The notes under the pieces were generated by a model, which was not told where the DNA came from, searched no databases, and worked only from the letters and a program-made list of their open reading frames with translations. This document shows, piece after piece, positions 5,434 through 22,231 of a DNA stretch of 37,655 bases. A program made the position numbers and the translations under genes. Where the stretch lies: positions 1-37,655 of the IMG/VR virus record IMGVR_UViG_3300032516_000076; one strand, given 5' to 3'. Source of the stretch: a virus. Each line of letters starts with the position of its first letter. Positions within the stretch are counted from its first letter, which is position 1.

Positions 5434-5952
5434 TTATGTGGTCGTTGCTACCACGCTTCCATCATCAGAGATGGGTTTCCAGAGGGCATAAAAATCAATC
5501 TGACCAGCCGTAACATTTGCTCCACCAGCGATAGTCATAATGATGTCGTTTCCATTAAGTATATATTCAGGTACATTTCCAGTAGCCGCTGACTCCAAAC
5601 CAACATCAATGTAAGTTACATTAGCAGCGTCATTCACCCAGAGTTGTCCTGCGTCTATTTGTGTGGCTGTTTCTACTGGGAGGAAGATTGCCGTTGCTCC
5701 AGTAATACCTACAGATAGGGTAGCTGCACCATCTGAATCCAAAAGAGTGTTACATACTGCAATTATTTTAATCTGGACTACACCTGTAACTGTAAACATT
5801 ACTCCACCATCTAAAGTTCCGCCATCATCTCCCCATGTATTGCTTCCTGCGGCACCTGTGAAAGTAATTGACCTTTTAGTTCGGAACGGATATTCACCTG
5901 CTACGGGGACTCTGTTTGCATCTCTGTCTACTGCTTCTGCGAATGTTGACAT
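5434..5952 (-). CDS. Structural (decoration-type) protein
   Basis: A protein of 172 residues, beta-rich, Gly/Thr/Ala-rich and low in Lys and Cys, as expected for capsid decoration or fibre-trunk domains (SITFTGAAGSNTWGDDGG, TGVVQIKIIAVCNTLLD). It ends GSVVATTT. The start at 5952 follows the motif TATAAT-ATAAAT-ATG. A free-standing virion surface protein is likely. No enzymatic motif; exact family unknown. Confidence 0.65.
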   Translation of the reverse strand: MSTFAEAVDRDANRVPVAGEYPFRTKRSITFTGAAGSNTWGDDGGTLDGGVMFTVTGVVQIKIIAVCNTLLDSDGAATLSVGITGATAIFLPVETATQIDAGQLWVNDAANVTYIDVGLESAATGNVPEYILNGNDIIMTIAGGANVTAGQIDFYALWKPISDDGSVVATTT

Positions 5953-5967: not shown

Positions 5968-6240
5968 CTAAGTTTTTCCAACGATAGATAAAATCTTTTC
6001 CAAGTACTCCTGAGCGGTTTTTAACATCTCAGTTAAAGTATCAATTTTCCCCTCAATCGTGTCTAATTTTGTACTTAAAGCGGCAACTTGTTCTGCTCCG
6101 TCAACTTCACCTTTAAAAGAATAACCAAGTTGATTACAGTCAGTACAGGGAATAACTTGACCAGAAGGAGTTTCTGTAATTACCTTAGTTCCCAAACAGG
6201 TTGGGCAGACTACTATAACATGATACGGTTCAACTGCCAT
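5968..6240 (-). CDS. Zinc-knuckle plus coiled-coil protein
   Basis: A protein of 90 residues. The start is taken at ATG 6240, six bases after TATAAT, rather than at an upstream in-frame ATG. Four cysteines in two CxxC pairs (C12/C15 and C32/C35, CPTC and CTDC) resemble a DnaJ-type zinc knuckle. The second half is a coiled coil (VAALSTKLDTIEGKIDTLTE). Short Zn-knuckle/coiled-coil proteins in phage head operons are usually uncharacterised; it might be an assembly factor or trimeric head-fibre stalk. Confidence 0.65.
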   Translation of the reverse strand: MAVEPYHVIVVCPTCLGTKVITETPSGQVIPCTDCNQLGYSFKGEVDGAEQVAALSTKLDTIEGKIDTLTEMLKTAQEYLEKILSIVGKT

Positions 6241-6246
6241 ATTTAT

Positions 6247-6252
6247 ATTATA
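6247..6252 (-). promoter_or_regulatory. TATAAT hexamer 6 nt before ATG 6240
   Basis: The minus strand reads GTATAATATAAATATG, identical to the context of the 5952 start. Leaderless-type start. Confidence 0.5.
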
Positions 6253-6312
6253 CACTTTCGGTTTAACCTCCCACCGAAAAGGAGTTACTTTTAACTTTAA
6301 AGTTCGCTCAGT

Positions 6313-14988: not shown

Positions 14989-15322
14989 TTGTGTCTATCT
15001 TAATCATTGGGGTAATCTTTTCTCCCTTACTAGTGATATCAGCCGTGGATACAGGATATCCGTCCGTCCGGTCCATGATATCCTTGATTGCCTGCCGATC
15101 GCCTTCTACTCCCATTTTTAATAGCCGCTTTGCTATAGCTTTTTTTGCCGAAATCATTTGACCGTCCTTTGCCGTCAATACCTCCTCTGCCGCTTCCTCT
15201 AATAGATCAGCCCATGTCCAGCCACGCTTTGGCCGACCATTGGGATTTCCCGATTCTCCGGGTTTCCATCTATGTCCTATGTTAACTTCTTGTTTTACAT
15301 CGCCGGTGTCACTGTCTGCCAT
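14978..15322 (-). CDS. Terminase small subunit candidate (DUF5681-like)
   Basis: A protein of 114 residues with the hallmark WKPGESGNPNGRPKRG near the N-terminus, known from DUF5681 proteins encoded beside terminases. The rest is helical (LLEEAAEEVLTAKDG, AIAKRLLKMGVEGDRQAIKD). Position directly before terL supports a role in DNA recognition for packaging. It overlaps both neighbours (28 bases with the methyltransferase, 11 with terL), so all three are probably translated from one mRNA. Confidence 0.75.
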   Translation of the reverse strand: MADSDTGDVKQEVNIGHRWKPGESGNPNGRPKRGWTWADLLEEAAEEVLTAKDGQMISAKKAIAKRLLKMGVEGDRQAIKDIMDRTDGYPVSTADITSKGEKITPMIKIDTNGK

Positions 15323-16434
15323 TCTTCTCCTTTCTTTATGAAGTTAGCATAGCGTTTGCGGATGGTATCGACATAATTTGGATCGAGTTCCATCATTTTA
15401 CAGGTGCGGTTGGTTTGTTCACAGGCGATGAGGGTAGAGCCGGAGCCGCCAAATAGATCAACAATGTTTGTATTTTCAGCCAATGAGTGATACTTCATGG
15501 CTCTTATATATATTTCAATCGGCTTTTGTGTTACATGAAGTCCGTGTTCCTCCTTGCCCATATTTATTCTGCGGACATACCATATCATCTGCTTATGGCT
15601 TGGATACATCCACGCCAATTCAAACGAACTTCCAAACACATCATTTTCTTGGTCTGAATGTGCTTTTGCCCATACGATAAAATTACCATCATAAAAGTTC
15701 GGGATAGTATTGCAAAAGTAATTCGCACCCCATATACACCAAATATCACATTTCGGCCATGCGATTGTTGTATAATCAAAGGGTTTATCATCACCTATAA
15801 TTGGCCGTTTTACATACGTTGGTTTTGCCCAATTCTTGCTTTCCTTATAAGCTATCCCGTATGGAGGGTCAGTTAGTATCATATCCGCTTTCTTCCCATC
15901 CATTAGTTTTTCCACATCTTCAATCTTGGTCGAATCACCGCAAAGGAGTCTGTGTCTTCCGAGTTGATACATTTCGCCCAGCTTTGACGCAGCCGGTTCA
16001 TCTGATACTTCTGGTACTTCATCCTCTACCACCTCTTTAAACTGATCCAGTAAATCCTGAAGGTTTGTCGGTTCCTTTAAATCCACACTGTAATCTTCCC
16101 AATTAAACTCCGGATAATTAGGAACGAGATTAGCTAACAAATCGTCGTCATAAAAACCAGACCTTTCGTTGAGAACCAGAGCGATCCTTAATTTCTCTGC
16201 CTCGTCTTTTGGTTCGACCACCTCCACCCAGACATCCTTTATTTGCAGGTCACGGTATGCCTTGATACGCATATTTCCCCCGAGAACCTCGCCATCGCCG
16301 GTAATGACCAAGGGTTGCATCTGTCCGTGGTCAGTAATGTGTTTCTTTAACCTTTCAAAGCCATCCTTTGTTATAGATCGGGGATTGCGGTCCCATTCAT
16401 GGAGGGTTGATATGTTTCTGAAGTCTTTTGCCAT
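15295..16434 (-). CDS. ParB-like nuclease domain fused to DNA methyltransferase
   Basis: A protein of 379 residues. Residues 1-90 form a ParB/Srx-like domain (LKKHITDHGQMQPLVITG, GEVLGGNMRIKAY). Residues 160-370 form an amino-methyltransferase: DPPYG at 189-193 and the SAM-binding FGGSGS at 328-333, with TQKP at 302-305. The order DPPY before FxGxG marks the beta class. It would methylate adenine N6 or cytosine N4 in phage DNA, probably against host restriction. No cognate restriction enzyme is visible. It starts the packaging operon. Confidence 0.88.
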   Translation of the reverse strand: MAKDFRNISTLHEWDRNPRSITKDGFERLKKHITDHGQMQPLVITGDGEVLGGNMRIKAYRDLQIKDVWVEVVEPKDEAEKLRIALVLNERSGFYDDDLLANLVPNYPEFNWEDYSVDLKEPTNLQDLLDQFKEVVEDEVPEVSDEPAASKLGEMYQLGRHRLLCGDSTKIEDVEKLMDGKKADMILTDPPYGIAYKESKNWAKPTYVKRPIIGDDKPFDYTTIAWPKCDIWCIWGANYFCNTIPNFYDGNFIVWAKAHSDQENDVFGSSFELAWMYPSHKQMIWYVRRINMGKEEHGLHVTQKPIEIYIRAMKYHSLAENTNIVDLFGGSGSTLIACEQTNRTCKMMELDPNYVDTIRKRYANFIKKGEEWQTVTPAM

Positions 16435-17102: not shown

Positions 17103-17130
17103 CGGGCGGTCTAGCAAACCGCCCTTTTAT
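17103..17130 (+). terminator. Intrinsic terminator of the plus-strand cassette
   Basis: GGGCGGT (17104..17110), loop CTAGCAA, ACCGCCC (17118..17124), then TTTT. The hairpin lies between convergent genes; on the minus strand no T-run follows, so it works mainly for the plus direction. Confidence 0.85.
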
Positions 17131-17672
17131 CTTACCAGATTTTTAATAAATGATTTATATCTCTCTGGGTCGGATCTGGCTTCGATCACTCTCTCTTTGA
17201 AAGCCGCAATCTTTTCTTTCTGCCGGGACTCGTTACTCTGGACCTGTTTACTATAATCCACCAACCTTGAGTATCCGGCGCGTCTAATCTCCTCTGACGA
17301 AAAGAAATTATGAACCTTGTCTGGGTATTTATCCACGAACTCCGGGTTGATCTCTAACTTCTTAGAGGTCTTGTTATAGGTATGGGGCTGGATCAGATCG
17401 TCGTGATGTTTTTCCCTTTGCTTTTTAATCCGTTCCGATCCCTCCGTCAGGTTTCGGGGTTTGCCTTTGGAATAGGTTTCGACCTTGGCCCGGCAGTCCC
17501 GACACCAGATCACGCCGTACTGGGGATGGACCTCTGCCGGTTTGATCCCGCACCGGGGGCAATCTATGGATAGACTGTCATTTTTGCATAGATTGTTATT
17601 CAGCCGATTCTTTTTCTTACGGGCAATAGACCTCGTTTCCTTGGCAGACCCCCTTTTAGGATGACTTTTCAT
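17127..17672 (-). CDS. Zinc-ribbon basic protein, last gene of the early module
   Basis: A protein of 181 residues with a zinc ribbon at C38xxC41 and C57xxC60 (CPRCGIKPAEVHP, WCRDC), preceded by a strongly basic N-terminus (RSIARKKKNRLNNN) and followed by a charged helical C-terminal half. The TAA stop lies inside the terminator tail of the convergent plus-strand unit. It overlaps the preceding gene by 17 bases. Nucleic-acid binding is likely; the exact role is unknown. Confidence 0.65.
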   Translation of the reverse strand: MKSHPKRGSAKETRSIARKKKNRLNNNLCKNDSLSIDCPRCGIKPAEVHPQYGVIWCRDCRAKVETYSKGKPRNLTEGSERIKKQREKHHDDLIQPHTYNKTSKKLEINPEFVDKYPDKVHNFFSSEEIRRAGYSRLVDYSKQVQSNESRQKEKIAAFKERVIEARSDPERYKSFIKNLVR

Positions 17673-18704: not shown

Positions 18705-18837
18705 TTTTATTTTTATCGGCATTTAACCGTTTTTTCTTTTCCTTGTCCCTCAACGAATCCATCTTTCTTTTTAGTTTCTTTGCCTCGCCCCGAGGTGGAT
18801 GGAGTGAAGGGTCGTGTTGTCCCATCTTAAACTCCAT
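18691..18837 (-). CDS. Tiny basic protein
   Basis: A 48-residue frame from ATG 18837, overlapping the end of the preceding gene by 11 bases and the start of the NinG-like gene by 14 (from 18704). It is extremely Lys/Arg-rich (EAKKLKRKMDSLRDKEKKK). It fills an otherwise empty gap in a tightly packed operon, the main evidence that it is real. Confidence 0.5.
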   Translation of the reverse strand: MEFKMGQHDPSLHPPRGEAKKLKRKMDSLRDKEKKKRLNADKNKINEI

Positions 18838-19096
18838 CAGGTTTAACTTTCCTCTTCAATATCTGCTCCTTCTTGTGGGCAACAACCCTGTCGACATTCT
18901 CCTTGATCTCCTTGCCGGTATAGAACCTCCAGTTCCGGTCGTTTACCGTCAGACTGCGGTTGGCCAGGTTAATCACGCCGGTCCGTTCCATCTTAAGGAG
19001 CGTAATGTATGAGTGGCCGATCTTCAGTTTCGGATACTTCTCTCCCGCCGCCTTCAATGCCTCCATCATGTGTTTTTTGGTGTATAGATCGTCCAT
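18827..19096 (-). CDS. Small winged-helix/MerR-like DNA-binding protein
   Basis: A protein of 89 residues. LYTKKHMMEALKAAGEKYP followed by a strand pair and FYTGKEIKENVDRVVAHKKE resembles MerR/excisionase-type winged helices. It is basic at the C-terminus. A transcription-regulator or recombination-accessory role is possible. The TATAAT upstream (19110..19115) is 13 bases before ATG. Confidence 0.6.
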   Translation of the reverse strand: MDDLYTKKHMMEALKAAGEKYPKLKIGHSYITLLKMERTGVINLANRSLTVNDRNWRFYTGKEIKENVDRVVAHKKEQILKRKVKPDGV

Positions 19097-19109
19097 ACTA
19101 TATATTTAT

Positions 19110-19115
19110 ATTATA
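19110..19115 (-). promoter_or_regulatory. -10-like TATAAT before the 19096 gene
   Basis: The minus strand reads GGTATAATATAAATATATAG before TATGG; the hexamer is 13 bases from ATG, so a leader of about six bases is predicted. Confidence 0.42.
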
Positions 19116-19152
19116 CCACTTATTTCGGCAGCGTAGATGATGAGGTGGTGGA

Positions 19153-19368
19153 TCATAATTTTCCCCAAGTAACTTCAATAATCGGATTTTCTTTATATGG
19201 AGTCAGTCTAACGATTCGCTCACCGTTGGGCAGTTCCCAGTTCAAATAAACTCTTCCATTTTCTTCCGAGTACCATTCAAGCACCGTTATCTCTTTTACC
19301 TGCTTTATTGGTTTCTCTTTCCTTTCCCGGCTTCTGGGGGGAGTCTTTACTGATGGTGAGTTAGTCAT
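19153..19368 (-). CDS. Small protein of unknown function (SPSVK N-terminus)
   Basis: A protein of 71 residues beginning MTNSPSVKTPPRSRERKEKP, then a beta-type C-terminal half (ITVLEWYSEENGRVYLNWEL). Its 5' end shares an exact 18-base sequence (19344..19361) with the 5' end of the next upstream gene. ATGA overlap with that gene. No function recognised. Confidence 0.6.
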   Translation of the reverse strand: MTNSPSVKTPPRSRERKEKPIKQVKEITVLEWYSEENGRVYLNWELPNGERIVRLTPYKENPIIEVTWGKL

Positions 19369-19574
19369 ATTTTGGTAGCAATATTTAGAACAACGGCAAG
19401 AATAAATAACTGAATAAACATTATGTAAATTAGTCCCAAAAGGATAGCTCTTTTAATTTCATTCCATAACTTTTGATTTTTGTCATGGCTTACTGCCCAT
19501 TCCTCAAGTATTTTGCCAACAAGTTCTGCTTGTGTTGTGTCTTTCTTCTTTACTGATGGTGAGTGGGTTTTCAT
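19365..19574 (-). CDS. Small single-pass membrane protein
   Basis: A protein of 69 residues with one transmembrane segment near the C-terminus (AILLGLIYIMFIQLFILAVV). It opens MKTHSPSVKKKDTTQAELVG, whose DNA repeats that of the following gene. Coupled to both neighbours by ATGA overlaps. Role unknown. Confidence 0.6.
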   Translation of the reverse strand: MKTHSPSVKKKDTTQAELVGKILEEWAVSHDKNQKLWNEIKRAILLGLIYIMFIQLFILAVVLNIATKI

Positions 19575-19870
19575 GCCTTCTTGGCCTCCTCAAAATGATT
19601 TAACATTATCTTTCTATCTAAGCATGACTTGGTATCTTCGGAATAATAAATAGCCTGTCTCCATTTCTCTAATATTTCCTTTACTGCTTCTTTACGGGAT
19701 TGAGTGAGGAGGGAACGGATGAAGTCAATTAAGCCAGACCAATATTTGAACGGTACATCTATGTAAAATAGATTGGTTTCCAGTTTTCTCTCCCACTCTA
19801 CTCTCTCGTCTTTACTTGATACTGGGGTTACTCTCTCGTCTTTCTTGGTTTTAATTAGCTGTTTTGGCAT
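19571..19870 (-). CDS. Small helical protein with duplicated KDERV N-terminus
   Basis: A protein of 99 residues. The N-terminus carries an internal duplication (KDERVTPVSSKDERV) encoded by two exact 15-base repeats 30 bases apart (19799..19813, 19829..19843). The rest is helical with aromatic residues (FYIDVPFKYWSGLIDFIRSL). No family recognised. Confidence 0.58.
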   Translation of the reverse strand: MPKQLIKTKKDERVTPVSSKDERVEWERKLETNLFYIDVPFKYWSGLIDFIRSLLTQSRKEAVKEILEKWRQAIYYSEDTKSCLDRKIMLNHFEEAKKA

Positions 19871-19872
19871 AG

Positions 19873-19944
19873 TTATTTCTTCCCTACGGTAATCCCCAGT
19901 ATATAACCAAGAACAAAGGCAAAGATGATCTTGAGAGTAATCAT
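19873..19944 (-). CDS. Micro-protein with one membrane helix
   Basis: A 23-residue frame, MITLKIIFAFVLGYILGITV then GKK, immediately after the FolE-like gene and overlapping its 3' vicinity. It is nearly all one transmembrane helix with a basic end. Translation is plausible through coupling but unproven. Confidence 0.42.
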   Translation of the reverse strand: MITLKIIFAFVLGYILGITVGKK

Positions 19945-19957
19945 AAATACCAGAGTT

Positions 19958-20449
19958 TCATGATCTTTTTGAAAACCAGTTACGATATAGAACAACCTCG
20001 GCATCTCTTGACACCCCGTCTTTGTGGTTGCACTCGTATTTCCCCCGCATCTCAAATGTAAAACCCTTCGGTTTCACTCTCTTTTTAAATTCCTCACAAA
20101 ACTCCTCAAATATGTCTTCCATCAGTAGGGGTTGGGCCACAATCGCCCGGAAAACCATGTACGCCTTAGAGGTGCCAATCATCTTATTGCCAGATGGAAC
20201 ATAAGTAAGAGTCGCTGTGTAATGGGTAGGCAAGAAATGGTGGGGGCAAAGACCCTCTGCCTCAAATCCGGTTAATGTTATTTCCCCCGAATAGGAGGAT
20301 AAAAAAGTCGTGTCTAATTCTTCTAACACCGATTGTTTCATTTCCACTCCCCGATAATAATAATTGACCATCCGTTCCCACCGTTCCACTGATTTGTCCA
20401 GACTTTCTGCATAGCGGGGGTCGATTTTGATGTAGTCGTTTATTTTCAT
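19958..20449 (-). CDS. Divergent GTP cyclohydrolase I-like (FolE, T-fold) protein
   Basis: A protein of 163 residues. GLCPHHFLP (C68, H70, H71), YVPSGNKMIGTSKA and a late Cys (C140 in KYECNHKDGVSRDA) match the zinc ligands and strands of FolE, which converts GTP to 7,8-dihydroneopterin triphosphate. E111 aligns with the guanine-binding Glu of FolE. By hand alignment, the residues matching E. coli His179 and Arg185 are Tyr/Asp-like here, so substrate or chemistry may differ. It is shorter than E. coli FolE (about 220). It is coupled (ATGA) to the CYTH gene. No QueD, QueE or QueC partner is present. Confidence 0.82.
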   Translation of the reverse strand: MKINDYIKIDPRYAESLDKSVERWERMVNYYYRGVEMKQSVLEELDTTFLSSYSGEITLTGFEAEGLCPHHFLPTHYTATLTYVPSGNKMIGTSKAYMVFRAIVAQPLLMEDIFEEFCEEFKKRVKPKGFTFEMRGKYECNHKDGVSRDAEVVLYRNWFSKRS

Positions 20450-20994
20450 TTAAAGTGTGGGTCCGGGGTGATCCCCTTAGATAAACACAAATCCTTGTAA
20501 ATCCCATCGTAGGAGCGGGTGATGTTGGCGTTAAGGTCGAAACCCAGTTTTACCGCCAGCTTTTTTATTGGTTCCTTTTCACCTTCAATCTCGACATAGT
20601 TTCCGAAGGAAAACTCGTCAAGAAATACTTTCACCCCGCCCAACTCCCAAATGGTGCGGTGTCGCTGATAACTGGAAACTGGCGTGTACCCCAATTCCTT
20701 CAAAACAAAGGCCACCTGCTCGGGGTTTTCAATCTCTGACTCGTATTCGATCTCTACCTTAATGCCGTTCCTGGTGACAGGTCGCTTGTATGATAGAGAG
20801 TTTATGTGACCGGCGGTCCTGATCCGAAGCCGTCCGTCCGACTCGATCATAAACTTGGAGGGGTTGTCGTACATGGTGGTGGTTTCCAGTACCCGGAGGT
20901 GAAAAATCCGAGCCCCGATTTTATCTATGGCCGCACGAAACTCTGCCATATTATCCAGTTTAAACTTCAACTCTATTTCAAGGTTGTCTTTCAT
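20446..20994 (-). CDS. CYTH-domain triphosphate enzyme (CyaB/ThTPase-like)
   Basis: A protein of 182 residues, the usual size of class IV adenylate cyclase (CyaB) proteins. The signature ExExK is intact (EIELK, residues 6-10), as are the tunnel residues: RLRIR (55-59), SYKRP (K70, R71), KVEIEYE (E81, E83), the basic pair near R111/R113, and FLDEFSFGNYVEIEG (D126, E135, E137). CYTH enzymes act on nucleoside or thiamine triphosphates or tripolyphosphate with Mg or Mn. Stop and start codons overlap those of the flanking methyltransferase and FolE-like genes, so a joint pathway is likely. Confidence 0.87.
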   Translation of the reverse strand: MKDNLEIELKFKLDNMAEFRAAIDKIGARIFHLRVLETTTMYDNPSKFMIESDGRLRIRTAGHINSLSYKRPVTRNGIKVEIEYESEIENPEQVAFVLKELGYTPVSSYQRHRTIWELGGVKVFLDEFSFGNYVEIEGEKEPIKKLAVKLGFDLNANITRSYDGIYKDLCLSKGITPDPHFK

Positions 20995-21668
20995 ATTTTG
21001 TAGATAGTGTATAAGACATTGAAATAACCCAAAGTATAGCCGTTCCCAGTTTGGGTAGTCCCTTTAACAATCTTCCTGATGTTGTTTTTGTTCTTATCCC
21101 ACAATTCGGGGCGTTTCTCCGACAGGAATTTAATCATCCCCAGCATTTCCTCATCCGTTTTTGTTTCCATGTTGATGGGGATAATTTCTCTCTCGTATTT
21201 AACATACTTTTTGACTATCTCCTGAACCTGCAAATCCGTCCTGTTGGAAATATCCGGGTGGATCTTCTCTTTGATTACCTGCATCAACCCGTCGTAGGTC
21301 ATATTGAAGATGTAAATCTTGCCCCCGACCTTGAGTAGTTGGTACATTTTAGCAATAGCCTTCTCTTTATCATCCAAGTAAGTCAACAAGTGGGAGGCCA
21401 AAATCACATCGTATCTGCTGCTGGTTTGAAAGTCCTCAAACTTGGTATTGTGGCAGACAATTCCCTGTTTTTCCAAGTTTTCACAGTAATTCTTCTTTTC
21501 CTCAACGACCTCTACCCGATCAAACATATCTTTCAAAGCAAGGGTTATTGTCCCTTCCCCACACCCTATATCCAGAAGTGACCCGCCTATCTTGCGGCGT
21601 AGGAGTGCAATCTGCTGAATCTTCTCGTCAGAGTGGCTAAGGAAAAACTGAAATTGATTGCCATTCAT
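20991..21668 (-). CDS. Class I SAM-dependent methyltransferase
   Basis: A protein of 225 residues with motif I LLDIGCGEG (31-39), an acidic residue after the next strand (VVEEKK), YDVILASHLLTYLDD, and a motif with LKVGGKIYIFN. It lacks the DPPY/NPPY motif of DNA amino-methyltransferases and resembles small-molecule methyltransferases. It is the first gene of a three-gene coupled cassette with CYTH and FolE-like genes. Its start lies seven bases after TATAAT of a near-consensus promoter (21676..21704), predicting leaderless mRNA. Target unknown; a pterin or nucleotide derivative is the natural guess. Confidence 0.82.
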   Translation of the reverse strand: MNGNQFQFFLSHSDEKIQQIALLRRKIGGSLLDIGCGEGTITLALKDMFDRVEVVEEKKNYCENLEKQGIVCHNTKFEDFQTSSRYDVILASHLLTYLDDKEKAIAKMYQLLKVGGKIYIFNMTYDGLMQVIKEKIHPDISNRTDLQVQEIVKKYVKYEREIIPINMETKTDEEMLGMIKFLSEKRPELWDKNKNNIRKIVKGTTQTGNGYTLGYFNVLYTIYKI

Positions 21669-21675
21669 AGTGATG

Positions 21676-21704
21676 ATTATATACCATGTTTATATAAATA
21701 TCAA
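21676..21704 (-). promoter_or_regulatory. Near-consensus promoter of the MTase-CYTH-FolE cassette
   Basis: The minus strand has TTGATA (21699..21704), exactly 17 bases, perfect TATAAT (21676..21681), seven bases CATCACT, then ATG 21668. The expected transcription start is the A of the start codon. Confidence 0.78.
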
Positions 21705-22231
21705 CTACCCCCCTTGCAATCGCAGAGTTCCAGTGGCTCCGATAGTTTCCACCCCCCGCAATATTCGCAGGTCACCGCGTGTACGGTCTTGGACCACCCG
21801 ATTGGTTTGCCACTCTCGGTCATCAGCCCCCGTTCCCTTAGTATGTCGCTCCGGCTCAACTCCCTGGCCTTTCCCAGCCATTCCTCGGCCTCCTCCTTGG
21901 TCTTGGCTTTGTTTATCTCCGGCAGAGCCAGACGGAGTTTGTCGTAGGGGATCTCGGCTATTTCCTCCATCCGGTACTTCAATCGTAGGATCATCGTCTC
22001 GTAAACCTGAATGTACGCCTGGACCGTGGACGGCTTCTGGCTCAGCTCCCCGCTGCCCAGGAACTCCGTCCAGGTGTCGTAACCCCCCTGGCCCAGATCC
22101 CGGTACAACTTGTCGTCCCGGAACCGCTTCAATATCCTCCCGATCTCCAAAAAAAGGTAACTCTGGGTTCGGAGCATGTCCTTCAACTCCTTCAGGAGGT
22201 CGAAGGCGACTATAGATTTGTTTTTGTCCAT
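21701..22231 (-). CDS. Helical protein with C-terminal zinc motif
   Basis: A protein of 176 residues. The body is helical (YLFLEIGRILKRFRDDKLYR, then DTWTEFLGSGELSQKPSTVQ), resembling phage proteins of unknown function encoded near replication genes. C155/C158 and C170/C172 (TCEYCGGW, ELCDCKGG) could bind zinc. It starts four bases past the stop of the OB-fold-like gene. Possibly DNA-binding regulatory; not recognised further. Confidence 0.62.
   Translation of the reverse strand: MDKNKSIVAFDLLKELKDMLRTQSYLFLEIGRILKRFRDDKLYRDLGQGGYDTWTEFLGSGELSQKPSTVQAYIQVYETMILRLKYRMEEIAEIPYDKLRLALPEINKAKTKEEAEEWLGKARELSRSDILRERGLMTESGKPIGWSKTVHAVTCEYCGGWKLSEPLELCDCKGGS

Follow-up and report, generated by a model that had tools for sequence, protein, structure and literature searches.

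The virus genome analysed here, an IMG/VR record of 37,655 bases whose full length we call the window, carries a compact cassette of three genes encoding a methyltransferase, a CYTH-domain protein and a FolE-like protein. We conclude that this trio is a real accessory insert, probably co-expressed and present in a single phage among those searched, and not a demonstrated new pathway. The FolE-like protein, in which the zinc centre of GTP cyclohydrolase I is retained and four active-site residues are replaced, is the interesting part of the cassette and merits an enzyme assay.

All three genes lie on the minus strand. The first gene of the unit encodes a class I SAM-dependent methyltransferase of 225 amino acids (20991..21668), followed by a CYTH-domain protein of 182 amino acids, a predicted triphosphatase (20446..20994), and a FolE-like protein of 163 amino acids with a divergent GTP-cyclohydrolase-I fold (19958..20449). 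The 4-base ATGA overlaps reported in the initial annotation are indeed present at both junctions, methyltransferase/CYTH and CYTH/FolE-like, and by this gene layout the trio is likely to be co-transcribed as one transcriptional unit. Each product scores over the curated Pfam cut-off for its family: PF01227 for the FolE-like protein (E=1.9e-16), PF01928 for the CYTH protein (E=1e-16), and PF08241 for the methyltransferase (E=4.3e-11).

The promoter-like site upstream, TTGATA-17-TATAAT (21676..21704, minus strand), is also as first described: 11 of its 12 positions match, the spacer is 17 bases long, and seven bases lie between the end of the -10 element and the ATG of the methyltransferase gene, which makes a leaderless cassette transcript probable. 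Across its entire minus strand, the window holds five sites that match at 11 or more of the 12 positions, against ~0.4 expected; the promoter type is therefore genuine in this DNA, yet nothing peculiar to the cassette. Among the 56 window genes, 11 (1.6 expected) have a -10-like hexamer whose end lies 3-12 bases 5' of the start codon, as do, by the same measure, 142 of 871 ORFs of the relatives L004-L086 (32 expected), a set whose members overlap in part, so that its cases are not all independent. These counts suggest that leaderless transcription is a trait of this phage family, and the cassette promoter is of the family's own, seemingly leaderless, type. In the 11 window genes, all on the minus strand, the hexamer is mostly TATAAT and ends 6-10 bases 5' of the starts at 5952, 8161, 11160, 13229, 13499, 17672, 21668, 25306, 27826, 31010, and 35773.

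Comparison with an empty site in a relative delimits an insert of ~2.6 kb (19097..21700, minus strand) that comprises the promoter, the three-gene unit and three small ORFs downstream of the trio. Upstream, the insert is flanked by a 176-amino-acid gene common to relatives (21701..22231, minus strand; its matches in G009 and G010 are 43% and 34% identical, respectively), whose product ends in a cysteine-rich zinc-finger-like motif, and downstream by an 89-amino-acid gene, likewise common to relatives (18827..19096, minus strand). The latter is 51% identical to an L157 gene that directly follows the upstream-flank homologue there. Since in L157, whose capsid protein is 80% identical, the homologues of both flanks are adjacent and overlapping, the trio must sit within the insert. 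In L158 (capsid protein 78% identical), the upstream-flank homologue and a small gene at the equivalent position are ~0.5 kb apart. The G+C content of the insert is 0.416 vs 0.466 for the whole window. The three small ORFs (19153..19870, minus strand; 99, 69, and 71 amino acids) are joined one to the next by 4-base overlaps and have no homologue among the relatives searched locally.

Recurrence of the trio in related phages, on which the initial annotation had staked its proposal, was not borne out. Family models for CYTH and FolE found no match in any of 58 distinct records of related phages, some 21 of which have lengths of 36-46 kb. The same tool recovered the window's own genes, and the CYTH search its CYTH gene; the methyltransferase gave one weak, generic match in 49 related records. 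Single-sequence searches of IMG/VR with each of the three proteins returned no close relatives, and a degenerate DNA pattern for the CYTH ExE strand had no match there. Among named phages, neither a tblastn search with the CYTH protein, which also covered plasmids, nor a search for the methyltransferase gave a match.

The cassette thus resembles phage morons: it is inserted between conserved neighbours, is absent from relatives, one of which preserves the empty site, has its own promoter, and is lower in G+C. It differs from them in its load, three metabolic genes and three small ORFs where morons have one or two genes, and in lacking a clear terminator: where the unit ends, the minus strand shows no terminator-like site. 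The corresponding stretch of L008 (680-2282) contains different small-molecule or nucleotide cargo, namely an ORF that we read as HAD-phosphatase-like although it has no Pfam match, an ORF that weakly matches DUF6206, and a HIT-domain protein.

The FolE-like protein scores 60.4 bits against PF01227 and 42 bits against the FolE equivalog model TIGR00063, whose cut-off is 181.6. Its AlphaFold2 model has a pLDDT of 89.2, and all 50 PDB matches listed by Foldseek are GTP cyclohydrolase I (TM up to 0.81), which places it in the T-fold. We compared it with 31 proteins: the FolE of E. coli, those of five named phages, and another 25 from phages, bacteria and archaea. The zinc ligands Cys110, His113, and Cys181 (C68, H71, and C140 in the window protein) and the catalytic His112 (H70) are identical in 31/31, and Ser135, Lys136, and Glu152 are also retained. 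The initial annotation was right about the zinc ligands and missed four replacements elsewhere in the active site: His179 is Y138, Arg185 is D144, Arg139 is M98, and Gln151 is M110. In the comparison proteins, His179 and Gln151 occur in all 31 and Arg139 and Arg185 in 30 each. The protein thus shares with GTP cyclohydrolase I (PF01227, TIGR00063), including a subgroup of phages and Myxococcales with the sequence CPHH at the zinc site, the fold, the zinc ligands, the CPHH sequence itself, and the four further residues named above, and differs in its ~20-30% identity, its shorter N-terminal part, and the four replaced residues.

In GTP cyclohydrolase I, Arg139 and Arg185 bind the triphosphate, Gln151 lies at the guanine site, and His179, without which the reaction does not run to completion, protonates guanine N7. 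Because all four are replaced, the ordinary conversion of GTP to dihydroneopterin triphosphate, which had been assumed for this protein, is unlikely on the evidence of its sequence; a lost function, a partial reaction, or another substrate is possible, and K143, beside D144, might stand in for Arg185. When His179 of the E. coli enzyme is mutated, formamidopyrimidine triphosphate is formed and not a pterin, according to the title of Bracher 1999 (reference 40 in PMC7750480). In the collections searched, the altered FolE occurs once, although the tools may conceal records that are nearly identical, and with no homologue close enough, selection on the altered residues is unsupported. A CPHH FolE pattern retrieved 22 records, with His179 present in every FolE that reaches that site (the one in L100 ends before it). 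One CPHH pattern applied to genomes yielded 41 FolE relatives of 24-36% identity, ten of which were aligned, all with an ordinary active site.

The CYTH protein, with 61.7 bits against PF01928 (cut-off 23.2), keeps its active-site residues, as originally noted: ExExK is E6-E8-K10, the arginine pair is R57/R59, and ExE is E135/E137. A three-motif test separates CYTH triphosphatases from adenylyl cyclases (PMC8233210), and here ExExK, the first arginine of xRxR, and both ExE glutamates are present, with no in-frame HF 5' of ExExK. Since ExExK, RxRxR, and ExE occur without HF, we predict that the protein is of the triphosphate tunnel metalloenzyme type, i.e., a triphosphatase and not an adenylyl cyclase. 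The assignment of the active site draws on motifs, because the structure model, predicted without an alignment, is poor (pLDDT 49.7). The class IV adenylyl cyclase CyaB was rejected: its HFxxxxExExK, a small residue for the first arginine, and alanine for the second ExE glutamate are all absent, and the NCBIfam cyaB model TIGR00318 gives 56.9 bits, just under its cut-off of 57.95. Thiamine triphosphatase, which needs W/YxRxR, was also set aside, as residue 55 is arginine (RLRIR) and not aromatic.

By sequence, the best PDB match of the CYTH protein is the archaeal triphosphatase Saci_0718 (SaTTM), its closest characterised relative, described as a triphosphatase and tested on inorganic triphosphate (PMC8233210). 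The two share ExExK, RxR, and ExE, the archaeal type; unlike SaTTM, the window protein has R55 where other triphosphatases have a small residue, is one residue shorter before the ExE strand, and is phage-encoded. In this last respect it is like the CYTH triphosphatases already known in jumbo phages (PMC7824862), of which Xanthomonas phage PhiXhv-15 is an example.

The methyltransferase, METHYLTRANSFERASE, belongs to class I and is of the Methyltransf_11/23 kind, with Pfam Methyltransf_11, 23, 12, and 25 all over cut-off; its C-terminal part, from about residue 130 onward, is unassigned. Its motif I, LLDIGCGEG (residues 31-39), is where the initial annotation placed a "small-molecule-type" motif; the motif itself stands, and alone it fixes no substrate class. 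The best PDB matches are diverse methyltransferases, mostly acting on small molecules.

That the three proteins act in one chain is suggested by the gene overlaps, which are the sole pointer to it, and overlapping phage genes are often functionally unrelated. Among 27 FolE-bearing phage records, one also has a CYTH gene, that of PhiXhv-15, where, unlike in the window, the two genes stand ~165 kb apart, CYTH at 57.5 kb of the record and FolE at 223 kb. As in the phages Typha, Finch, HVTV-1, and Vibrio phage 1.207.B, whose FolE belongs to 7-deazaguanine pathways, the window encodes a FolE homologue within a gene cluster. In those phages, however, FolE keeps its full active site and stands beside QueD/QueE/QueC or a tRNA-guanine transglycosylase. 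We found none of these partners, in agreement with the initial annotation: Pfam or PHROGs scans showed no QueD, QueE, QueC, or DpdA among the window proteins they covered, and 7-deazaguanine DNA modification was rejected as an explanation. Lone phage FolE genes are known and were left aside in a survey of 7-deazaguanine modification as genes whose role could not be told (PMC6884629). mRNA capping by a CYTH triphosphatase and a methyltransferase was considered and dropped, as no capping-methyltransferase family matched and no guanylyltransferase was seen.

Our preferred reading, to which we give about an even chance, is that of a moron-like, acquired, co-expressed accessory cassette combining a triphosphatase, a methyltransferase and a catalytically altered protein of the GTP-cyclohydrolase fold. 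One member of a family that includes the TM7 (Saccharibacteria) phage DolZOral124_53_65 would have acquired the cassette between two conserved genes, and the cassette would be read from its own near-leaderless promoter. The CYTH protein would hydrolyse tripolyphosphate or nucleoside triphosphates. The FolE-like protein may still bind zinc and a purine-like ligand, and may either halt after opening of the imidazole ring, as in the E. coli His179 mutants, or take a substrate without a triphosphate. The methyltransferase would have a small-molecule substrate, which it may share with the FolE-like protein.

A less probable but serious alternative is that three unrelated accessory genes have gathered in one insertion hot spot with no common substrate: the triphosphatase would serve housekeeping, the methyltransferase would be an orphan, and the FolE-like protein would be a paralogue in decay or put to a new use. 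The different small cargo of L008, including its HIT-domain protein, speaks for this, and CYTH triphosphatases and FolE do occur separately in phages (PMC7824862, PMC6884629); yet the trio stands under one promoter with overlapping start and stop codons and no gene in between, and the reading frame and zinc centre of the FolE-like protein are intact. The pathway put forward in the initial annotation, in which FolE makes dihydroneopterin triphosphate, CYTH trims the phosphates, and the pterin is methylated for DNA modification or counter-defence, we now regard as very unlikely, given the altered active site of the FolE-like protein and the lack of conservation of the trio. The observation on which it was built is confirmed, and the overlaps, the fold with its zinc ligands, and the triphosphatase motifs of the CYTH protein all agree with it, but the interpretation is weak: besides the replaced residues and the relatives that lack the trio, SaTTM is described as a triphosphatase and not as a pterin enzyme, and the deazaguanine partner genes were not found among the scanned proteins. 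DNA modification and counter-defence have no direct support, and as to known defence genes, PADLOC returned for the trio only a generic methyltransferase-domain match.

Two further readings concern the FolE-like protein itself. GTP cyclohydrolase I is a decamer with active sites at its subunit interfaces, and a non-catalytic FolE-like protein could sequester a guanine nucleotide or poison the oligomers of host FolE while the CYTH protein lowers tripolyphosphate or nucleotides. The decameric architecture and the loss of four conserved substrate-site residues with the fold kept would suit such a role; a complete zinc centre together with His112 is unexpected in a purely binding protein, and we consider this reading improbable. 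Far more speculative is the proposal that the protein is a new zinc-dependent purine-opening enzyme whose substrate is N7-methylated by the operon's methyltransferase, with the CYTH protein removing phosphates. With a substrate already carrying the N7 methyl group, or activated in some other way, His179 would be dispensable, and, on the same slender odds, the cassette would produce or break down a guanine compound that is methylated and ring-opened.

An active FolE-like protein would be nature's equivalent of the His179 mutants made in the laboratory, and an example of how the fold of GTP cyclohydrolase can be turned to another reaction. Should the three enzymes work jointly, they would constitute a phage nucleotide-tailoring unit, probably in phages of ultra-small episymbiotic bacteria, organisms with very limited nucleotide metabolism; to our knowledge, no such unit has been described before. 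If neither is true, the cassette is an ordinary accessory insert.

The probable host is suggested by the portal protein, which shares 38% identity with its counterpart in Caudoviricetes MW202566 and 26% with the one in DolZOral124_53_65, whose record gives TM7 (Saccharibacteria) as its host. A host among the Patescibacteria is likely, because the portal resembles that of a TM7 phage. An alignment of the capsid protein retrieved 133 IMG/VR relatives; 80 of these were kept. A search for prophages as a route to the host, with two degenerate capsid-protein patterns over 84,980 genomes, found no relative.

Many relatives encode a GroEL-like chaperonin upstream of the terminase, often with a GroES-like gene (L011:2331-3977, L159:7219-8501, L160:5455-7083, L161:4726-6318, L162:2157-3821, and L002:6021-7646); none was seen in the window phage. 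At 15295-16434, the window encodes a ParB-like N-terminal domain fused to an N6/N4 DNA methylase (phrog_498), a protein conserved beside the terminase in near relatives. Weak, below-cut-off matches to the zinc-ribbon-like restriction-alleviation protein Lar family occur at 5968-6255 and 17127-17672, and the protein at the latter position is common to many relatives.
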